Positions 29,353 through 62,212 of a stretch of DNA of 64,000 nucleotides are shown in pieces. Source of the DNA: Marinobacterium jannaschii DSM 6295. GTDB lineage: Bacteria; Pseudomonadota; Gammaproteobacteria; Pseudomonadales; Balneatricaceae. The stretch is from NCBI RefSeq assembly GCF_000620085.1, contig NZ_JHVJ01000018.1, forward strand, positions 53,674 to 117,673. Direction: 5' to 3'. Below the pieces are notes generated by a model, which ran no database searches, was not told where the DNA came from, and saw only the letters and a list, made by a program, of their open reading frames with translations. Position 1 is the first letter of the stretch. The number at the start of each line of letters is the position of its first letter. A program made the position numbers and the translations under genes.

Positions 29353-29533
29353 AGGACGTCCTTTTTATTTTTGTCGGGTGCTGATCCTAGCCTGAGACCA
29401 AGGTCGCAGCCATTAGCCCTTGGTTGACCGTGGTGCAGTTGCCCGCTTTTGACGCACCATGGACGCTCGGTTGTTGAATGGGTTTTTATTGATTAGGTAG
29501 GTTTTCGTGTTGAATTCAATGCGATTAGTGATT

Positions 29534-29549
29534 TGGCCCGGTTTTTGCT
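29534..29549 (+). promoter_or_regulatory. Sigma-54 (-24/-12) promoter of the chemoreceptor/NIT operon
   Basis: TGGCCCGGTTTTTGCT fits TGGCACR-N4-TTGCW with one mismatch (C for A at consensus position 5). GG and GC are in exact register, and the -12 element TTGCT is perfect. Transcription would begin near 29560, giving a 197-nt leader. It lies in the 404-nt gap 29353-29756, which otherwise holds no gene. Confidence 0.65.
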
Positions 29550-29634
29550 TTGTCTCTTTGACCTGACAGGAAATCGAGACTGATCGAAAAACCGGGGCAA
29601 TTCAGATGATGACCAGGCTGGGGTTCATTCAGCA

Positions 29635-29692
29635 GAGCAAAGGCGCTCATTCGGCGGATCTATTAAGGTCCCGCCCAATGAGCGCCTTTTTT
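29635..29692 (+). terminator. Leader terminator with overlapping ANTAR-type hexaloop hairpin
   Basis: An intrinsic terminator of 19 bp with one mismatch (arms 29639-29657 and 29671-29689) ends in six T. It lies 64 nt before the chemoreceptor ATG. Overlapping its 5' arm is the alternative hairpin GAGC-AAAGGC-GCTC (29635-29648). Its hexaloop has A at position 1 and G at position 4, the ANTAR recognition rule. The loop is identical to that in the narK leader. I could not find a clear first ANTAR hairpin upstream. Confidence 0.6.
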
Positions 29693-29756
29693 AATGCCTC
29701 CGGTGTGGGCATTGCGGGTCAAGCGGCCGCCCTGATCTATCAAGGAATCGCAGTAT

Positions 29757-30887
29757 ATGTACAAATATCTTCAACCACTGGGGATTCAGGGGGGCTATTG
29801 GCTGGCGGCCGTGCTCGCTGCACTGGGGATCGGCTTGGGTGCGGCAGGGCTGACAGACGAAGCCCTGCTGTTGCTAGCCGTCGCAATACTGTTTGCGCTG
29901 GGCCTGCTGCGCGCAATCCGTAGTGATCATCTGGCCCTCAAGGCGTTACTTATTGCGGCGACAGAGACGGGTTTCGAGAGATCTGAGCAATCGGTTAAGG
30001 GGCCTTTGAGTGATCTTCAGGCTGGACTTGATGATCTGTTGCGTTTGCTCGATCGCCGCCGGGACGCGATGGCTGCGACCCTCACCGAGATGCGCTATTC
30101 CGCACAGGAGCTGTCCGTGAATGCAGCCCAGGTCGTCAGCCACTCCCGGCATCAGTCCGAGGCGACCACCGCTGCGGCGGCTGCGGCGACCGAGATCAGC
30201 CAGAGCACCGATGAGGTCGCCGGACGGATCAGCACCACCCGGGATGCGGCACAGAGTGCCCGTCAGCTATGTGATGCCGGATATCGGGCGCTGCAGGATA
30301 CCCGGCAGCAGGCCGAATCGGTATCTGCCGAGTCCTGCCGGACCGGCGAACAGATTCGTCAGCTCGGCGGCAGCCTGGGTTCGGTGGTATCGATGTCCTG
30401 CATCATCCGCGAGATAGCCGAACAAACTAACCTGCTGGCGCTGAATGCCGCGATCGAAGCCGCCCGGGCCGGGGAGTATGGTCGTGGTTTTTCGGTGGTG
30501 GCCGACGAGGTGCGGGCGCTGGCGCAACGCAGCCATGACTCAGCCCAGGGCATCACCCGACAGACCGAAGTGGTGACCCGGGATATGGAGCAGGTCGCCA
30601 GCCATATGGCTCAGATGGTCGAGCGTTCCGAAACCTGTCTTAGTGGTGTGGCAATGGCATTCGATTCCCTGAGTGAGATCGTCGATGCCTCCGATCAGGT
30701 TGCCGGTGAGATTTCTGCGATTGCTGCGGTTTCGTCGCAGCAGGCTGTGGCGGCACAGGAGATTTCGCACCATATCGAGCAAGTGGCCACCCGGGCTGGC
30801 GAAAACGTATACCGGGCAACGCAGACCGCAGAAGTTGCCCGGCACCTGCATGCCATGGTGCAAACTGAGACAGAGGGAGAGAAGTAG
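29757..30887 (+). CDS. Membrane chemoreceptor lacking a ligand-binding domain
   Basis: 376 residues. Two adjacent membrane helices (about 12-30 and 35-52) are joined by only a few residues, so there is no periplasmic sensor. A cytoplasmic methyl-accepting signalling domain follows, with its tip in [23 protein letters not shown] is preceded by AAGGA about 11 nt away. The stop codon directly abuts the ATG of the NIT-like gene. The inference is that this transducer gets its signal from that neighbour. Upstream lie a sigma-54 promoter and a leader terminator like those of the nitrate genes. Confidence 0.88.
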
Positions 30888-31703
30888 ATGGACGGGACAT
30901 GGAATAGCGCGACTCTGGTGATTGTACTCTTGATGCTGGTTCTGGTGACACTGGCGTTGAGCTATCACCTGATGCAGCGGCGCACGCGCCGCCGCTATAT
31001 CGAAGGTATCGAATGGATGCAGCAGCTCTGCCAGTTGCTGGCCCTGCTGCAACAGCACCGGGGCCTGAGCAACGGCTACCTGCATGGCGATGACTCGGCC
31101 CGGCCGCGTATTGCCCAGCTACAGCAGCAGATCGGGCAGCAGCTCGACCTGCTCAACCGGAAGGGGGTCTGGATACACCTCTCCGGTATCTGGCTCGGAA
31201 TCCAGGGTCACTGGAGCCGTCTGGAGCACAGTTACCTGCAGCTGGGCGCCGATGCCAGCCTGAAGCAGCATAATCGTATCATCACCCACCTCCTCAACTT
31301 GATTGCAGACTGTGCTGAGAATCATCAGTTGCATCATCTGCGACAGGATGAGAAGCAGGTAGCGTATCTCTGGCAGGAACTGCTGAGTACGGCGGAATAT
31401 ATCGGTCAGGCCCGGGCGCTGGGTACCGGGGTGACGGCGGCCGGAAGCTGCAGCAGCGTGGATAAGATCCGGCTGAACTTCCTGCACAACCGGTTGAGCA
31501 ACTATATGAGTCAACAGGAGTCGGTGCAGGTCAGCAGCGCCCTGGGCGAACTGCTCAGTACCCTGCGTCACCAGGTGATTGTCGACCTGCCGACGATAGC
31601 GTCGCAAGACTACTTTAAGCAGGCTTCGGCGGTGATGGAGTTGCTGATGCAACAGTGCCAGCAGGGGCTGACCCAGCTGGCTGAGCAGCTGAGGAGCCAC
31701 TGA
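30888..31703 (+). CDS. Membrane-anchored NIT-like (nitrate/nitrite-sensing) protein
   Basis: 271 residues. One N-terminal membrane helix (about 9-27) is followed by RRTRRR, so the rest is cytoplasmic. The segment LLALLQQHRGLSNGYLHGD resembles the conserved LQ-ERGLS-GYL helix of NIT domains (PF08376), known from NasR and bacterial nitrate sensors. The remainder is all-helical with a His-rich patch (ENHQLHHLRQ). There is no output domain. It abuts the sensorless chemoreceptor gene with no gap and lies beside nitrate assimilation genes. The inference is a nitrate-sensing partner in a split chemoreceptor. The NIT assignment is by motif only. Confidence 0.65.
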   Translation: MDGTWNSATLVIVLLMLVLVTLALSYHLMQRRTRRRYIEGIEWMQQLCQLLALLQQHRGLSNGYLHGDDSARPRIAQLQQQIGQQLDLLNRKGVWIHLSGIWLGIQGHWSRLEHSYLQLGADASLKQHNRIITHLLNLIADCAENHQLHHLRQDEKQVAYLWQELLSTAEYIGQARALGTGVTAAGSCSSVDKIRLNFLHNRLSNYMSQQESVQVSSALGELLSTLRHQVIVDLPTIASQDYFKQASAVMELLMQQCQQGLTQLAEQLRSH

Positions 31704-31744: not shown

Positions 31745-33463
31745 TCAGGGGCGGATCAACAGCTGCAGCAGATTGAGCAGCAGCAGGATCAGGCACAATC
31801 CCTGCCACACCCGGATCGGGTTGCGATCCAGCAGTGGTTGGCGTTTGATACGGGCTTCCAGTGCCGGGTTGGGCTGGGTCAGGTCCTGCAGGAATTCTGA
31901 CAGGGCATCATAGCGGTGGGCCGGATTGGGCTGCAGCGCTTTGTGCAGGCAGCCTTCCACCCACAGCGGCAGGTCGCTGCGCTGCTGCAGTGCCGGGATG
32001 TAGTTGAGCTGGTTGTAGTGGTCCAGTTTAACGCGTTTGATTGAGGGTTCCTTGAAGGGCAGGGCGCCTGTCAGCATCTCGTAGCAGATCACCGCCAGTG
32101 AGAACAGGTCGGAACGGAAGTTGCCTGCTTCACCCACCAGATACTCCGGTGCCACATAGTTAACCGAGCCCTGGGGCACCGACTTATCCAGCGGCGAGGC
32201 GATCTCCTCCACACCGGCGATCAGGACAGTACCGAAATCGAGGATCTTGATACGGCCATCGCGGTCGATCATGATGTTTTCCGGCTTCAGGTCCTGATGC
32301 ACCATATCCGCCCTCTGGAAGGCGCGCAGCCCCTGTACCATCTGCTTGACCAGCGCGCGCACCGTTTCCAGCGGAGGCTGCGGATTATCGTTGATCCACT
32401 CGCGCAGGTTCTCGCCCTGAATGTACTCCCCCAGATAGTAGAGGAAACGCTTGGGCTGTTTCGGCTCGAAGGTCTTCATCACGTTGATATGGCTGATGCG
32501 CTGGCCGACCCACTCCTCGCGGATAAAGCCGTCCAGGTAGAGCGGGTCTTCACTGAAGTTCTCCGACGGGGCCTTGAGCACAAACTGTTCGCCGCTGTCA
32601 CAGTCCTTCACCAGATACATATGGCTGCGGGTACCGCTGAAGATCACATCCAGCACCTCGTAGCCGTCGATACGGTTACCGGGCCTCATCACCGGCGGAA
32701 CCGGCAGGCGCGAGAGACGCTGGTGGCTCTCATCCAGCGTCTCCCGGGGCAACTGGTCGACGGCGATCAGCAGGGCAGTGGCGTTGTCGTCGCTGCCGTT
32801 ATCCAGCGCTGCCTGCACCAGGTCGCGGGCGCACTGCTCCAGATCGGAGCCTCCCTTGAGCAACTGCTGCTGGATCTGCTGCGGGCTGAGAAATTCATGC
32901 AGGCCGTCGCTGCTGAGCAGCAGGCGATCCCCCTCGCTGAGCGGACAGCCGTGGTAATCCACTTTCAGATCACTGTCACCACCCAGCACCCGGGCCAGGT
33001 AGTTGCGACCGGCTTCGGTGCGGGTATGGTCCTGGGTCAGCTGCTCCAGCTGGCCGTTGTGCAGGTGGTAGATGCGGGAGTCGCCGACATGGAAGCAGTG
33101 CAGGCTGGTGGATTTCACCACCACCGCCGAGAAAGTACAGAGCATGCTGTCTTTCTCCCGTGCAGAGGTGGCGTTTTGCTGGTGCAGCCAGCGGTTGAGG
33201 CTGTGCATCACCCGCGATACCGAATGCTTCACACTCCAGCTCAGCGGCGTACTGAAATAGTCCTCGATAAAGCTGGTGACGCTGGTCTGACTGGCGATAT
33301 GGGAGTCGGCACAGCTGCTGACGCCATCGGCGATCACTGCCGCGCCGCCCTTGAATTCCAGTTCGCGGCCGGTGGCCAGCTTCGCCGCAAAGGCATCCTG
33401 ATTGAGGGCCTTGATGCCTCCGACCGAACAACCGCCAAAACGTAACTTGAGTTGAGTCTGCAT
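31745..33463 (-). CDS. PP2C-type phosphatase fused to Ser/Thr protein kinase
   Basis: 572 residues. Residues 1-240 are a PP2C phosphatase with metal-binding Asp motifs: ALNQDAF, VIADGVSS, FHVGDSRIY, LLSSDGL and GSDDNATALL. Residues about 265-535 are a Hanks-type kinase. Its Gly-rich loop is degenerate (IFSGTRSHMYLV), but the VAIK-type Lys (FVLKAP), HQDLKPENIM (His-x-Asp), LDFGTV (DFG) and YVAPEY are intact. A C-terminal membrane helix anchors it. The same fusion sits in Pseudomonas nas clusters next to the nitrate transporter and nirB. It likely tunes nitrate uptake or reduction post-translationally, but its target is not known. Confidence 0.9.
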   Translation of the reverse strand: MQTQLKLRFGGCSVGGIKALNQDAFAAKLATGRELEFKGGAAVIADGVSSCADSHIASQTSVTSFIEDYFSTPLSWSVKHSVSRVMHSLNRWLHQQNATSAREKDSMLCTFSAVVVKSTSLHCFHVGDSRIYHLHNGQLEQLTQDHTRTEAGRNYLARVLGGDSDLKVDYHGCPLSEGDRLLLSSDGLHEFLSPQQIQQQLLKGGSDLEQCARDLVQAALDNGSDDNATALLIAVDQLPRETLDESHQRLSRLPVPPVMRPGNRIDGYEVLDVIFSGTRSHMYLVKDCDSGEQFVLKAPSENFSEDPLYLDGFIREEWVGQRISHINVMKTFEPKQPKRFLYYLGEYIQGENLREWINDNPQPPLETVRALVKQMVQGLRAFQRADMVHQDLKPENIMIDRDGRIKILDFGTVLIAGVEEIASPLDKSVPQGSVNYVAPEYLVGEAGNFRSDLFSLAVICYEMLTGALPFKEPSIKRVKLDHYNQLNYIPALQQRSDLPLWVEGCLHKALQPNPAHRYDALSEFLQDLTQPNPALEARIKRQPLLDRNPIRVWQGLCLILLLLNLLQLLIRP

Positions 33464-35080: not shown

Positions 35081-35184
35081 AAAAAAGGCGTTAGAAAGCC
35101 CCCCGCAAGGGACTGTCTGAACGCCTTTGTTCAAATCGGGTGCGTCATCTTTTAAGCCGGATCAGCTCTGGTGCATCATTGCCC
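35081..35184 (-). promoter_or_regulatory. narK leader: ANTAR hairpins and terminator
   Basis: The terminator is on the minus strand, 24 nt before the narK ATG: AAGGCGTT/AACGCCTT arms plus an inner stem, then six T (35081-35128). Overlapping its 5' arm is hairpin P2, TGAAC-AAAGGC-GTTCA (35118-35133), with a hexaloop having A1 and G4. A candidate P1 lies upstream (35170-35184): GGGC-AATGAT-GCACC with one bulged A and an A1/G4 hexaloop. P2 and the terminator are mutually exclusive, as required for NasT antitermination. Confidence 0.72.
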
Positions 35185-38883: not shown

Positions 38884-38988
38884 AAAAAAAAGCGCCTGAA
38901 CTGATCTCCCCTGAGCGGGGAGACTGTTCTGGCGCCATTGCCAACAGATAAAGTCTGTTTTTATTTTCTGACCGCGCCTGCACTGGCG
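38884..38988 (-). promoter_or_regulatory. nrtA leader: two ANTAR hairpins and terminator
   Basis: P1 is CGCC-AGTGCA-GGCG (38975-38988), just after the predicted transcript start near 38994. P2 is TGGC-AATGGC-GCCA (38930-38943). Both hexaloops have A at position 1 and G at position 4. The P2 3' arm is part of the 5' arm of the terminator (38884-38936). That terminator has GGCGC/GCGCC outer arms, inner CTCCCC/GGGGAG and a run of eight T. It ends about 20 nt before the nrtA ATG. This is the complete ANTAR target architecture. Confidence 0.85.
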
Positions 38989-39185: not shown

Positions 39186-40199
39186 TCAGCCGGGCTCTTC
39201 CAGCAGGTCCGGGCGGTATACCTGTTGTGCGATATCCTCAGGGTCTTCTCCCTGCCACTGTCCCAGTTGCTGCATCTGCTGCAGTAACTGACCGGCATAG
39301 GCCGGATCGGGCCGGTTGCCCTGCTGCCAGAACTGGCTACGGACTTCCAGCTGCGGCTTAAACTCAGTGGTCAGGCTGTTCTTCCCGAGGTATTGCGGCC
39401 TGGCCAGCAGCTCGCGCATCTGAGGCAGGTTCCGGCCCTCTCCCAGCCACTGGCAGGCATGGCTGATGCTTTGCAGCAGGGCCTGGTGGCTCACTGCATG
39501 GGTGCTTGCAAAGTTTTGGGTGACGCCAAATACCTTCTCGATCGCCCCGGGCCAGAGCTGATGGCCTGAAGCCACCACGGTACCGACATTGTGCAGCTCG
39601 GCCAGGGTATTCCAGGGTTCGCCGACGCAGTAACCGTCGATAGCGCCATCGCTGAGTGTCTCCAGCATCCGGGAGGGGGGCAGGGGGATCAGTTTCAGGT
39701 TCCGTCCCGGTTCTATGCCGTTGTCCCGCAGCCAGTTGTTTAGCTGATAGTAGTGGCAGGAGTAGGGATACACCGTGGCCAGTGTCAGGGGGCGGGCTCC
39801 GGATTCGATATAGCCTTTCAGTGCCCGGGCGGTGTCCGCCGGCCGGCAGAGACTCGTCAGCCCCTGTTGTTCGCGCAGGCGCTCAATCAGCTGTTGCGAC
39901 AGGGTGATCGCCAGACCGTTGTAGCTCAGCACCAGTCCGGTCAGCATCGGTACGGCGCGGGTGCCAAGGCCCAGGGTGGCAGCCAGCGGTAAAGGCGAAA
40001 GCATCTGGGCGCCATCAAGCAGTCCGTAACTGACCTTATCGCGGATGCTGCCCCAGTTGCTCTCCCGTTCCAGAGTGACATTGAGGCCCTGCTGTTCGAA
40101 GAAGCCCAGCTCCTTCGCGATCACCAGAGGCGCGCAATCCGTCAGCGGGATAAAGCCCAGTCTTAAGTCCGTTTTTTCACAGGTTTCTGAGTACATCAT
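39186..40199 (-). CDS. nasS: NasS, cytoplasmic nitrate/nitrite sensor
   Basis: 337 residues, clearly an NrtA-type binding protein ([47 protein letters not shown]) but without a signal peptide, so it stays in the cytoplasm. In Azotobacter and Paracoccus, NasS binds NasT and holds it inactive until nitrate or nitrite arrives. It begins one base after the nasT stop, so the two are coupled. The order here is nasT then nasS. The role is inferred from family and context, and supported by the ANTAR leaders on three nearby operons. Confidence 0.92.
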   Translation of the reverse strand: MMYSETCEKTDLRLGFIPLTDCAPLVIAKELGFFEQQGLNVTLERESNWGSIRDKVSYGLLDGAQMLSPLPLAATLGLGTRAVPMLTGLVLSYNGLAITLSQQLIERLREQQGLTSLCRPADTARALKGYIESGARPLTLATVYPYSCHYYQLNNWLRDNGIEPGRNLKLIPLPPSRMLETLSDGAIDGYCVGEPWNTLAELHNVGTVVASGHQLWPGAIEKVFGVTQNFASTHAVSHQALLQSISHACQWLGEGRNLPQMRELLARPQYLGKNSLTTEFKPQLEVRSQFWQQGNRPDPAYAGQLLQQMQQLGQWQGEDPEDIAQQVYRPDLLEEPG

Positions 40200-40200
40200 G

Positions 40201-40818
40201 CTACCTCTTGGTCCGGCTGTCGGTTTTGCCCGCCGTCAGCTCAAGAATATCGATCACGTTGGAGGCCACATCGACCAGCTTCTGACTGCGGTCCATCGCA
40301 AGGTTGCGCAGGATGCTATAGGCCTGATCTTCATCGCAGCCATGCTGTTTCATCAGCAGGCCCTTGGCTTTTTCCACCACCTTGCGTTCATTCAGCTTGT
40401 CCCGGGTGCGCTCCAGCTCGGTCCGCAGCTGCTGGTAACTGTTGAAGTGGGCGATCGCTGTTTCGATGATCGGCCTGACCCGGTCGGCCTGCAGGCCATC
40501 GGCAATATAGGCGCTGACGCCGGCATTAATGGCGGCACTGATGTTGGAAGCGTTCTGCTCCTGTTCGGCAAAGAACACGATCGGTCGCGGATGGTTCTGG
40601 CTCATGGCGGCCATGCTTTCCAGGGTGTCGCGGTCGGGAGAATCCATATCGATAATCACGATATCCGGTTTGCTGCGCTCGACATGGCTACTCAGGCCAC
40701 TGGCCGACGGCAGCTGACTGACCACTTTGTGGCCGAGCCGGTCCAGTGCCTGTCTCAGGGTACTGATCCGTTCGGGTTGGTCGTCGATCAGCAGAACATT
40801 GAGTTTCGGTGTTTTCAT
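40201..40818 (-). CDS. nasT: NasT, ANTAR-type transcription antiterminator
   Basis: 205 residues: a receiver-like domain (LNVLLIDDQPERISTLRQ, then VIIDMDSPDRDTLESM) followed by a short coiled coil and an ANTAR RNA-binding domain (KLNERKVVEKAKGLLMKQHGCDEDQAYSILRNLAMDRSQKL). ANTAR proteins bind paired hexaloop hairpins and block an overlapping terminator. I start at ATG 40818 (GGGGA upstream). The frame is open 12 codons further. It is divergent from nasA. Predicted targets in this window are the leaders of nasA, nrtA, narK and probably the chemoreceptor/NIT operon. Confidence 0.93.
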   Translation of the reverse strand: MKTPKLNVLLIDDQPERISTLRQALDRLGHKVVSQLPSASGLSSHVERSKPDIVIIDMDSPDRDTLESMAAMSQNHPRPIVFFAEQEQNASNISAAINAGVSAYIADGLQADRVRPIIETAIAHFNSYQQLRTELERTRDKLNERKVVEKAKGLLMKQHGCDEDQAYSILRNLAMDRSQKLVDVASNVIDILELTAGKTDSRTKR

Positions 40819-40871
40819 CGTTGCTTTCCCCATAAGGATACGGGGATATTGCAAAGACCGTTCCAGAATGC

Positions 40872-40926: not shown

Positions 40927-41034
40927 GCTGATAGCACAGCGACTTCGCTGTGTTGACGGGTTGACTATCTTTTACCTATATCTGGGCAATGGGGCCCGAC
41001 ACCGTTATTCGTAGCGGCGTCGGGCCCTTTTTTT
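40927..41034 (+). promoter_or_regulatory. nasA leader: two ANTAR hairpins and terminator
   Basis: P1 is GCTG-ATAGCA-CAGC (40927-40940). P2 is GGGC-AATGGG-GCCC (40984-40997). Both hexaloops have A1 and G4. The P2 3' arm is inside the terminator 5' arm (GGGCCCGAC, 40992-41000), which pairs with GTCGGGCCC (41019-41027) and ends in seven T. The terminator ends 14 nt before the ATG. An extra hairpin CACAGCG/CGCTGTG shares bases with the P1 3' arm and may compete with it. Confidence 0.87.
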
Positions 41035-61947: not shown

Positions 61948-62212
61948 GCGGTGCTCCCATAATTTTTATGAAAGCTGACGTGTGGGGTCTGCCTGATAGT
62001 TGTCGGTCATGACCACATCGCTACTGTTAGTGTCAGCAGCAACCACCTTGCCCAGGTTGGCAGGTTGGCGAGGACGTCAGCCCTGCTCTTGATGTTGTTA
62101 AAGATGCAGGCCACTCTAGCGACTTTAGGAACGTATCACAAGCAATAATTCTGGTTATGGGATAAAAATCCGGTATTTCGGATGAAGAGGCGTCAGGGGC
62201 CATCAAGCAGAC
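61948..62212. other. Intergenic region, nothing recognised
   Basis: 265 nt between the hypothetical gene and the lipA terminator. No coding frame or RNA signature stands out. It must hold the promoter of the minus-strand hypothetical gene. Confidence 0.5.

Follow-up and report, generated by a model that had tools for sequence, protein, structure and literature searches.

Why should a chemoreceptor operon carry an intrinsic terminator between its promoter and its first start codon? The question is raised by a locus in a stretch of 64,000 nucleotides (nt) from Marinobacterium jannaschii DSM 6295 (contig NZ_JHVJ01000018.1, positions 53,674 to 117,673; hereafter the window), in which a gene for a short methyl-accepting chemotaxis protein (MCP), mcp, is followed directly by nit, a gene for a separate protein with a NIT domain. 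The leader of this operon contains a hexaloop hairpin of the ANTAR type (P2) that overlaps a terminator. This attenuator is real, is common to the nitrate assimilation (nas) genes of the same genome and recurs in relatives. We consider it very probable that it is a nitrate-responsive ANTAR-type transcription attenuator placed before a split chemoreceptor operon and switched by nitrate through NasT.

The mcp leader and its counterparts at nitrate genes

Upstream of mcp lies a sigma-54 promoter element (Table 1) that departs at one position from the consensus used for scoring, TGGCACG-N4-TTGCW. From the position of the GC in its −12 element, transcription is expected to start at about 29560, which would make the leader 197 nt long. 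P2 has a stem of four base pairs (bp) and the six-base loop AAAGGC, with A at position 1 and G at position 4 (A1/G4). Because its loop and 3′ arm also serve as the 5′ arm of the terminator, the two structures are mutually exclusive. The terminator (−33.3 to −34.2 kcal/mol) ends in six T residues and stops 64 nt short of the mcp ATG. Folding of the full leader formed the terminator (z = −3.1), and folding of its first 101 nt formed the hexaloop hairpin, with no unusual stability (z = +1.5); a 6-bp hairpin with a five-base loop was also predicted one nt 5′ of P2. Rfam gave no match to the attenuator leaders at the gathering threshold. An additional hairpin, AATGCC...GGCATT, occupies 29693–29713, directly after the terminator and 5′ of the mcp start.

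Table 1 Positions of the promoter, leader elements and genes discussed (window coordinates unless a locus is named)
Feature	Position	Strand	Basis or remark
Sigma-54 promoter (−24/−12), TGGCCCGGTTTTTGCT	29534–29549	+	One mismatch to consensus
Attenuator leader of mcp	29560–29756	+	Start from −12 element
ANTAR-type hexaloop hairpin P2, GAGC-AAAGGC-GCTC	29635–29648	+	Counterparts in 17 other operons
Intrinsic terminator, AAAGGCGCTCATT...AATGAGCGCC-TTTTTT	29639–29692	+	5′ arm is P2 loop plus 3′ arm
mcp, short MCP, 376 amino acids	29757–30887	+	PF00015, 4.1e-39; N-terminal part hydrophobic (by eye)
nit, NIT protein, 271 amino acids	30888–31703	+	PF08376, 1.8e-8, 35.5 bits (cut-off 24.9)
narK attenuator, P2 TTTGAAC-AAAGGC-GTTCAGA plus terminator	35081–35135	−	Scanner, covariance model
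nrtA attenuator, P2 TGGC-AATGGC-GCCA plus terminator	38884–38944	−	Scanner, covariance model
nasS-like gene (NMT1-like family), adjoins nasT	39186–40199	−	PF13379, 1.6e-64; named by context
nasT (receiver plus ANTAR)	40201–40854	−	PF03861, 2.2e-21; frame from TTG, start may be downstream
nasA attenuator, P2 GGGC-AATGGG-GCCC plus terminator	40983–41034	+	Scanner, covariance model
Nitrite reductase-domain gene (1,301 amino acids), attenuator GAAC-AAAGGC-GTTC	L232 1222–5242, 5 kb left of window	−	Covariance model R1

The same element stands at nitrate genes of this genome. We scanned both strands of the window for terminators that begin with the loop or 3′ arm of an A1/G4 hexaloop hairpin, and found exactly four sites, before mcp, nasA, nrtA and narK. 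The other 15 combinations of bases at loop positions 1 and 4 gave three sites in total, and 40 dinucleotide shuffles of the window gave a mean of 0.275 sites and a maximum of 1, a rate that converts to about 5e-4 for one leader of the length of the mcp leader. Among the neighbours, narK is identified by TIGR00886 above its cut-off, and the name nasA rests on domains and context, with scores below the NCBIfam cut-offs.

A covariance model (R1), trained on 39 nas-type leaders that included those of nasA, nrtA and narK from the window and no mcp leader, recovered all four sites in the window, at 48.1 bits for nrtA, 45.4 for nasA, 45.1 for mcp and 27.3 for narK; below narK ranked the mcp element read on the other strand (18.7 bits), followed by unrelated sequence at 14 bits or less. 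Run on the whole genome (5.18 Mb), the model returned five matches at E up to 1 among the 150 of 1,379 candidates that were scored, and with that coverage the narK leader was not reported. Three of them were window leaders, nrtA at 1.9e-7, nasA at 8.2e-7 and mcp at 9.6e-7; the fourth, at 6.1e-4, lies 5 kb left of the window, and the fifth is its opposite strand. The site to the left precedes the nitrite reductase-domain gene of Table 1, in a leader with its own sigma-54 element, and is a fifth attenuator target in the genome. The mcp leader thus has its element in common with nasA, nrtA, narK and the nitrite reductase gene. An earlier note on this DNA had called the promoter with its single mismatch, the 197-nt leader with its terminator 64 nt before the ATG, the overlapping A1/G4 hexaloop, a loop identical to that of the narK leader and the same layout at three nitrate operons of the window; letters, coordinates and scanner agree with it on each point, the narK hairpin being GAAC-AAAGGC-GTTC.

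Recurrence in relatives and the missing first hairpin

We searched three overlapping sets of 57, 116 and 390 genomes for relatives of the NIT protein, with matches in 22, 41 and 50 at the thresholds used, and also GTDB contigs, which yielded 42 loci. Of the fetched loci, 42 of 53 in one set and 36 of 42 in the other had an MCP gene directly upstream of the NIT gene, and MCP–NIT is therefore an established gene pair. We counted 64 non-redundant MCP–NIT operons after dropping 14 loci from repeat genomes, L148 (partial MCP) and the 17 loci without an MCP directly upstream (11 of 53 and 6 of 42 in the two fetched sets).

When terminators were sought, regardless of any hexaloop, within 160 nt upstream of the MCP start, 20 of the 64 operons had one, and 18 of these 20 bore an A1/G4 hexaloop. 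The remaining two were a U1/G4 loop in a Marinobacter metagenome-assembled genome (MAG; L169), left out of the attenuator count, and a terminator judged spurious (L166). The 18 attenuators comprise 16 from the terminator listing together with L044 and L046, whose hairpins come from the whole-genome locus scan. Their loops are AACGAC, AAAGAA, AATGAC, AACGAG, AATGAA, AATGAT, AAAGAC and AAAGGC, and the named carriers are Marinobacterium litorale, lacunae, mangrovicola, ramblicola, lutimaris and zhoushanense, Amphritea atlantica, Amphritea pacifica, Natronospirillum operosum and Pseudomonas sp. WN033. In whole-genome loci selected for NIT, the A1/G4 class gave 31 matches (15 before mcp, 4 before nas genes and 12 doubtful) and the 15 other loop classes 0–10 each; in loci selected for ANTAR, it gave 33 matches compared with 0–3 in the other classes. 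Eleven of the 12 doubtful matches lie before neither mcp nor nas genes, and in the twelfth (L076) the terminator runs over the start codon. We also set aside a match at L033, which sits upstream of the promoter, and one at L150 as false or doubtful. Covariation in P2 exceeded that in shuffles and is given little weight, because the sequences were chosen for having P2.

In a tree of the 64 concatenated MCP and NIT sequences (a single FastTree run with midpoint rooting), 17 attenuator operons fell into one clade, together with the U1/G4 operon of L169 and one operon without an attenuator (L174). The window operon stood far from this clade, beside attenuator-less operons of Neiella, G039 and L144. 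Attenuator presence required 4 parsimony changes on this tree, compared with a mean of 16.1 and a minimum of 11 for shuffled labels. The earlier note would have counted a lack of conservation of the P2/terminator pairing in relatives as a refutation; the pairing is kept in 18 of 64 operons, those of the clade and the window, and this outcome speaks for the claim. As 17 lie in one clade and the window lies elsewhere, we read the pattern as two origins: the attenuator before MCP–NIT probably arose twice, although transfer or many losses could instead account for the two groups on this single tree. The MCP–NIT operon of the congeners G001–G004 belongs to a different lineage, in which a sigma-54-like site is present and the attenuator absent; all four genomes do have the element in nas-type leaders.

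We searched for a first hairpin (P1) as an A1/G4 hexaloop of at least 4 bp, with at most one G-U among the first four pairs, within 75 nt upstream of P2. The mcp leader of the window has no such hairpin of at least 4 bp upstream. The earlier note had conceded this as its weak point, and the lack proves to be general: P1 was found in only one of 18 mcp leaders (other loop classes, 0–3), compared with 16 of 47 nas-type leaders (other loop classes, 0–5). The nas-type candidates lie 0–10 or 21–57 nt from P2; that of the nrtA leader in the window, CGCC-AGTGCA-GGCG, lies 30 nt upstream. Other hairpins occupy the P1 position in mcp leaders, with no common feature by eye, and in eight relatives the sigma-54 site ends just 24–43 nt before P2, which leaves little room for P1. 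Nas-type leaders of the group partly retain P1, and mcp leaders are single-hexaloop attenuators; with P2 present and no P1 at 5–12 nt upstream, the mcp leader is not filed as a dual-hexaloop ANTAR target. Hairpins resembling P1, of the A1/G4 type and 21–57 nt upstream, were seen at L233, L234, L235, L110–L112 and L115, mostly in transporter-type leaders, and this spacing exceeds the 5–12 nt of eut leaders.

The probable regulator and split receptor

In the genome of the window (G000), nasT is the only ANTAR gene found. We surveyed 43 MCP–NIT genomes, 16 of them with the attenuator (the genomes of L175 and L181 lie outside this set); 30 had a match to NasT (E up to 1e-15) and 39 had an ANTAR domain, and the four genomes without ANTAR also lack the attenuator. 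Every one of the 16 attenuator genomes has an ANTAR gene: eight have a longer ANTAR frame and no NasT match, four hold both, and four, including that of the window, have NasT alone. Seven of the 12 longer proteins were scanned and all combine NIT and ANTAR domains, as expected of NasR-like proteins (six from genomes without NasT and one from G008); the other five were judged by length. The assignment of the operon to a NasT regulon in the earlier note is thus supported, NasT being the sole ANTAR protein found in the window's genome. For the group, in which 12 of 16 genomes hold the longer, NasR-like gene, the term 'nitrate-responsive ANTAR regulon' fits more closely. In one genome (G118; L243, 2436–10241), a nasR-like gene and nasA flank mcp-nit, an nrtA-like gene belongs to the same compact cluster, and attenuators precede mcp, nasA and the nrtA-like gene. 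According to the available text on Paracoccus, nitrate or nitrite makes NasS let go of NasT, which binds the nasA leader RNA (PMC3795266). NasT would act likewise here, and its control of the mcp leader in the window is by far the best reading.

Initiation may be tied to nitrogen status. Scored against the NtrC dyad consensus GCACC-N5-GGTGC, 31 of 49 operons have an NtrC-like site (at most two mismatches) upstream of the sigma-54 site, compared with 2.8 expected from mononucleotide shuffles, a comparison in which related sequences are not independent; 20 of the 31 sites begin 90–116 nt before the −24 element. For Pseudomonas stutzeri A1501, MCP genes with putative NtrC sites are described whose expression is lowered in an ntrC mutant together with that of nas genes, and the accessible part of that report mentions no antitermination (PMC8443478). 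Two MCP genes of P. putida rise under nitrogen limitation, their regulator not being determined in the portion of the study available (PMC7801951).

Pfam found only the signalling domain, and no sensor domain, in the 376-residue MCP. The NIT protein, whose domain scores above the Pfam cut-off, has a single N-terminal hydrophobic stretch followed by basic residues, and 57 of 64 NIT proteins have the same one-anchor topology by a simple charge rule. This rule places the NIT domain in the cytoplasm; the protein of the window is probably membrane-anchored, with a cytoplasmic NIT domain. A QxxRG motif is present in 62 of 63 NIT relatives and, by eye, GxxR in all 63 (G[QLE]xRA in 54; GRLR, GKLR or GRIR in nine). 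R58 and R176 of the window's protein are invariant in 12 of 12 aligned sequences. In profile comparison, split NIT proteins align with NasR-like NIT domains at both motifs (E 5.2e-9), and an alignment of the NasR-like protein of G118 with 4akk, the NasR crystal sequence, spans the same motifs; a search by sequence with the alignment of split NIT proteins found no solved structure. One review states, in its available part, that NasR keeps both nitrate-binding arginines and has one glycine replaced by glutamine (PMC8199190). R58 and R176 are thus putative ligand residues, equivalent to the nitrate-site arginines of NasR. Together, control by nitrate antitermination and NasR-like motifs would provide independent evidence that the split subfamily works in nitrate sensing.

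Proposed mechanism, rival readings and known systems

Sequence analysis establishes the promoter element, two hairpins predicted to exclude each other, the likeness to nas leaders, the recurrence and a single ANTAR gene. In the mechanism we propose, sigma-54 polymerase would start at the promoter, in relatives probably under NtrC and hence in nitrogen-starved cells. Without nitrate, NasS would hold NasT inactive, the terminator would fold and the transcript would stop. With nitrate or nitrite, freed NasT would hold the hexaloop hairpin and so block the 5′ arm of the terminator, and polymerase would then read through into mcp and nit. The chemistry of NasS and NasT, binding of NasT and nitrate-dependent readthrough at this leader are extrapolated from the family. 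The product would be a two-protein receptor, made jointly with nitrate transporters and reductases, in which NIT would be the nitrate sensor, on the cytoplasmic side, and the short MCP would signal to CheA. Nitrate as the ligand, the MCP–NIT partnership and taxis are more tentative predictions, and guidance of cells to nitrate is a plausible function of the receptor.

Several observations weigh against this scheme. The attenuator is missing from 46 of 64 MCP–NIT operons, and neither the nearest homologues (Neiella, G039) nor the congeners G001–G004 have it before mcp. An ANTAR gene is still present in 23 of 27 attenuator-less genomes, and the comparison with 16 of 16 attenuator genomes is not significant (p ~0.14, one-sided). 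P1 is scarce in mcp leaders, and EutV is described, as far as the available text goes, as requiring both hexaloops in vivo (PMC3369931, PMC8934654); the latter source has EutV binding each hairpin alone, and in it the minimal target is redefined as a single hexaloop (Walshe 2022, PMC8934654). At the window, the best NtrC-like site has three mismatches, and control by NtrC is therefore suggested there by kinship only. Finally, the available account of P. aeruginosa PA4520 reports no nitrate binding by its NIT domain (PMC6381276).

This last point bears on a different account of the receptor, in which the operon belongs to the nitrate regulon and its product senses nitrite, nitrogen status or another signal. 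We regard this as a possibility to be taken seriously, albeit the lesser one. One report, in its accessible part, describes no binding of nitrate or nitrite by the NIT domain of PA4520 and no nitrate taxis through the NIT receptors of P. putida and P. fluorescens under the conditions tested (PMC6381276), and the literature consulted yielded no NIT-domain chemoreceptor with a proven ligand. The split NIT proteins, however, keep the QxxR/GxxR pair aligned with NasR-like NIT domains, whereas QxxRG is missing in 6 of 8 conventional NIT–MCP frames (PA4520 is not among the frames compared).

Alternatively, the short terminated leader RNA might act in trans as a sponge for NasT, with mcp expressed from another promoter or by leakage, which we think unlikely. 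Promoter and terminator delimit a complete small transcription unit that contains one ANTAR hexaloop, and single hexaloops are named as possible sequestration sites in the available text of Walshe 2022 (PMC8934654). EutX and Rli55, which are sponges for EutV, are likewise short terminated RNAs with ANTAR hexaloops; they act in trans, whereas the mcp terminator stands directly before its operon. The distance from the end of the terminator hairpin to the MCP start is 18–31 nt in the clade and 68 nt in the window, which puts the terminator where an attenuator stands, and its overlap with the hexaloop hairpin is that of nas leaders. In addition, a simple consensus scan, which also missed the mcp terminator, found no sigma-70-like promoter at 29360–29800.

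That an RNA-binding regulator other than NasT reads the hairpin is very improbable: NasT was not detected in 8 of the 16 attenuator genomes tested, but all eight have a longer ANTAR gene, and in the window's genome nasT alone was found and the nas leaders carry the same element. Least credible is an ordinary terminator with a chance hexaloop and no ANTAR control, for although the A-rich start of a terminator 5′ arm can yield such loops and the stem is only 4 bp, shuffles put the chance at about 5e-4 per leader, the hexaloop sits on 18 of 20 terminators found regardless of it, and 19 of the 31 A1/G4 matches lie before mcp or nas genes, compared with 0–10 matches in all for each other class.

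Attenuation by NasT would place the mcp leader beside NasR at nasF of Klebsiella oxytoca and NasS–NasT at nasA of Paracoccus and Azotobacter, which likewise use nitrate-responsive ANTAR antitermination with a leader hairpin that excludes a terminator; the likeness extends to the element at the nas genes of the window's genome. Unlike in those systems, the target here is a chemoreceptor operon and its leader has one hexaloop, whereas two hairpins are described in the Paracoccus nasA leader (PMC5424462) and a dual motif in the nasF leader (PMC3369931), in the available parts of both papers. The antiterminator EutV of Enterococcus faecalis shares an A1/G4 P2 that overlaps a terminator, but needs a P1, 5–12 nt upstream in the eut leaders described in the available text, and 17 of 18 mcp leaders have none. 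McpN of P. aeruginosa is also a nitrate chemoreceptor with a nitrate-dependent transcript level; it is one polypeptide with a periplasmic PilJ domain, and its transcript is lowered by nitrate, according to the available text (PMC6381276), whereas here the sensor is encoded by a gene separate from that of the MCP and nitrate is predicted to raise expression.

The earlier note knew of no described case of such a chemotaxis operon. In the literature consulted, mostly outside subscription papers, we likewise found no chemoreceptor described under NasT or NasR antitermination, and the word 'chemotaxis' is absent from the main texts of the Bradyrhizobium and two Paracoccus NasT papers. The claim needs narrowing in one respect, as the available Figure S3 legend of Ramesh 2012 mentions an MCP gene whose ribosome-binding site is overlapped by a putative ANTAR target. 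That target also joins an ANTAR motif to a chemotaxis gene; translational control is suggested there, compared with an attenuator here.

Further copies of the element point to other possible targets. In Marinobacterium zhoushanense and M. ramblicola, a GGC-AACGAC-GCC hexaloop/terminator (L108 at about 1501–1560, + strand; L106 at about 1555, − strand) precedes a gene whose product has an EAL domain (by Pfam, run on L108 only); a cyclic-di-GMP phosphodiesterase may therefore also belong to the regulon. In relatives, at L182, L201, L199 and L234, the element precedes genes resembling those for siroheme synthase and formate/nitrite transporters, as judged from N-terminal sequence only; a peptidase M20 gene after a match at L099 is probably no target. 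In Aestuariicella, Pseudomaricurvus and a Cellvibrionaceae MAG (L060/L158, L154, L162 and L166), a NIT gene lies within a few kilobases of nrtA, and the nrtA leader has the mcp-type hairpin GAGC-AAAGGC-GCTC (GGGC/GCTC in L162); the arms of its terminator in L166 closely match those of the window's mcp leader. Elsewhere in the window, 31745–33463 (− strand), downstream of narK on the same strand, encodes a protein that combines PP2C phosphatase with Ser/Thr kinase domains, and 61986–62100 (− strand) is a SAM-I/IV riboswitch (Rfam RF01725, 66.6 bits).

The same arrangement in relatives suggests a receptor that is built when nitrate is usable. We lean, somewhat more than evenly, towards the broader view that attenuation was placed at least twice before a split, membrane-anchored receptor for intracellular nitrate, with a single hexaloop and no recruitment hairpin, within one regulon for assimilation and taxis under NasT or NasR. 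The single-hexaloop mcp leaders form a natural, recurrent set that bears on why ANTAR systems need two hairpins. A receptor made when nitrate is present would be the reverse of McpN, and would mean that there are two strategies of nitrate taxis.

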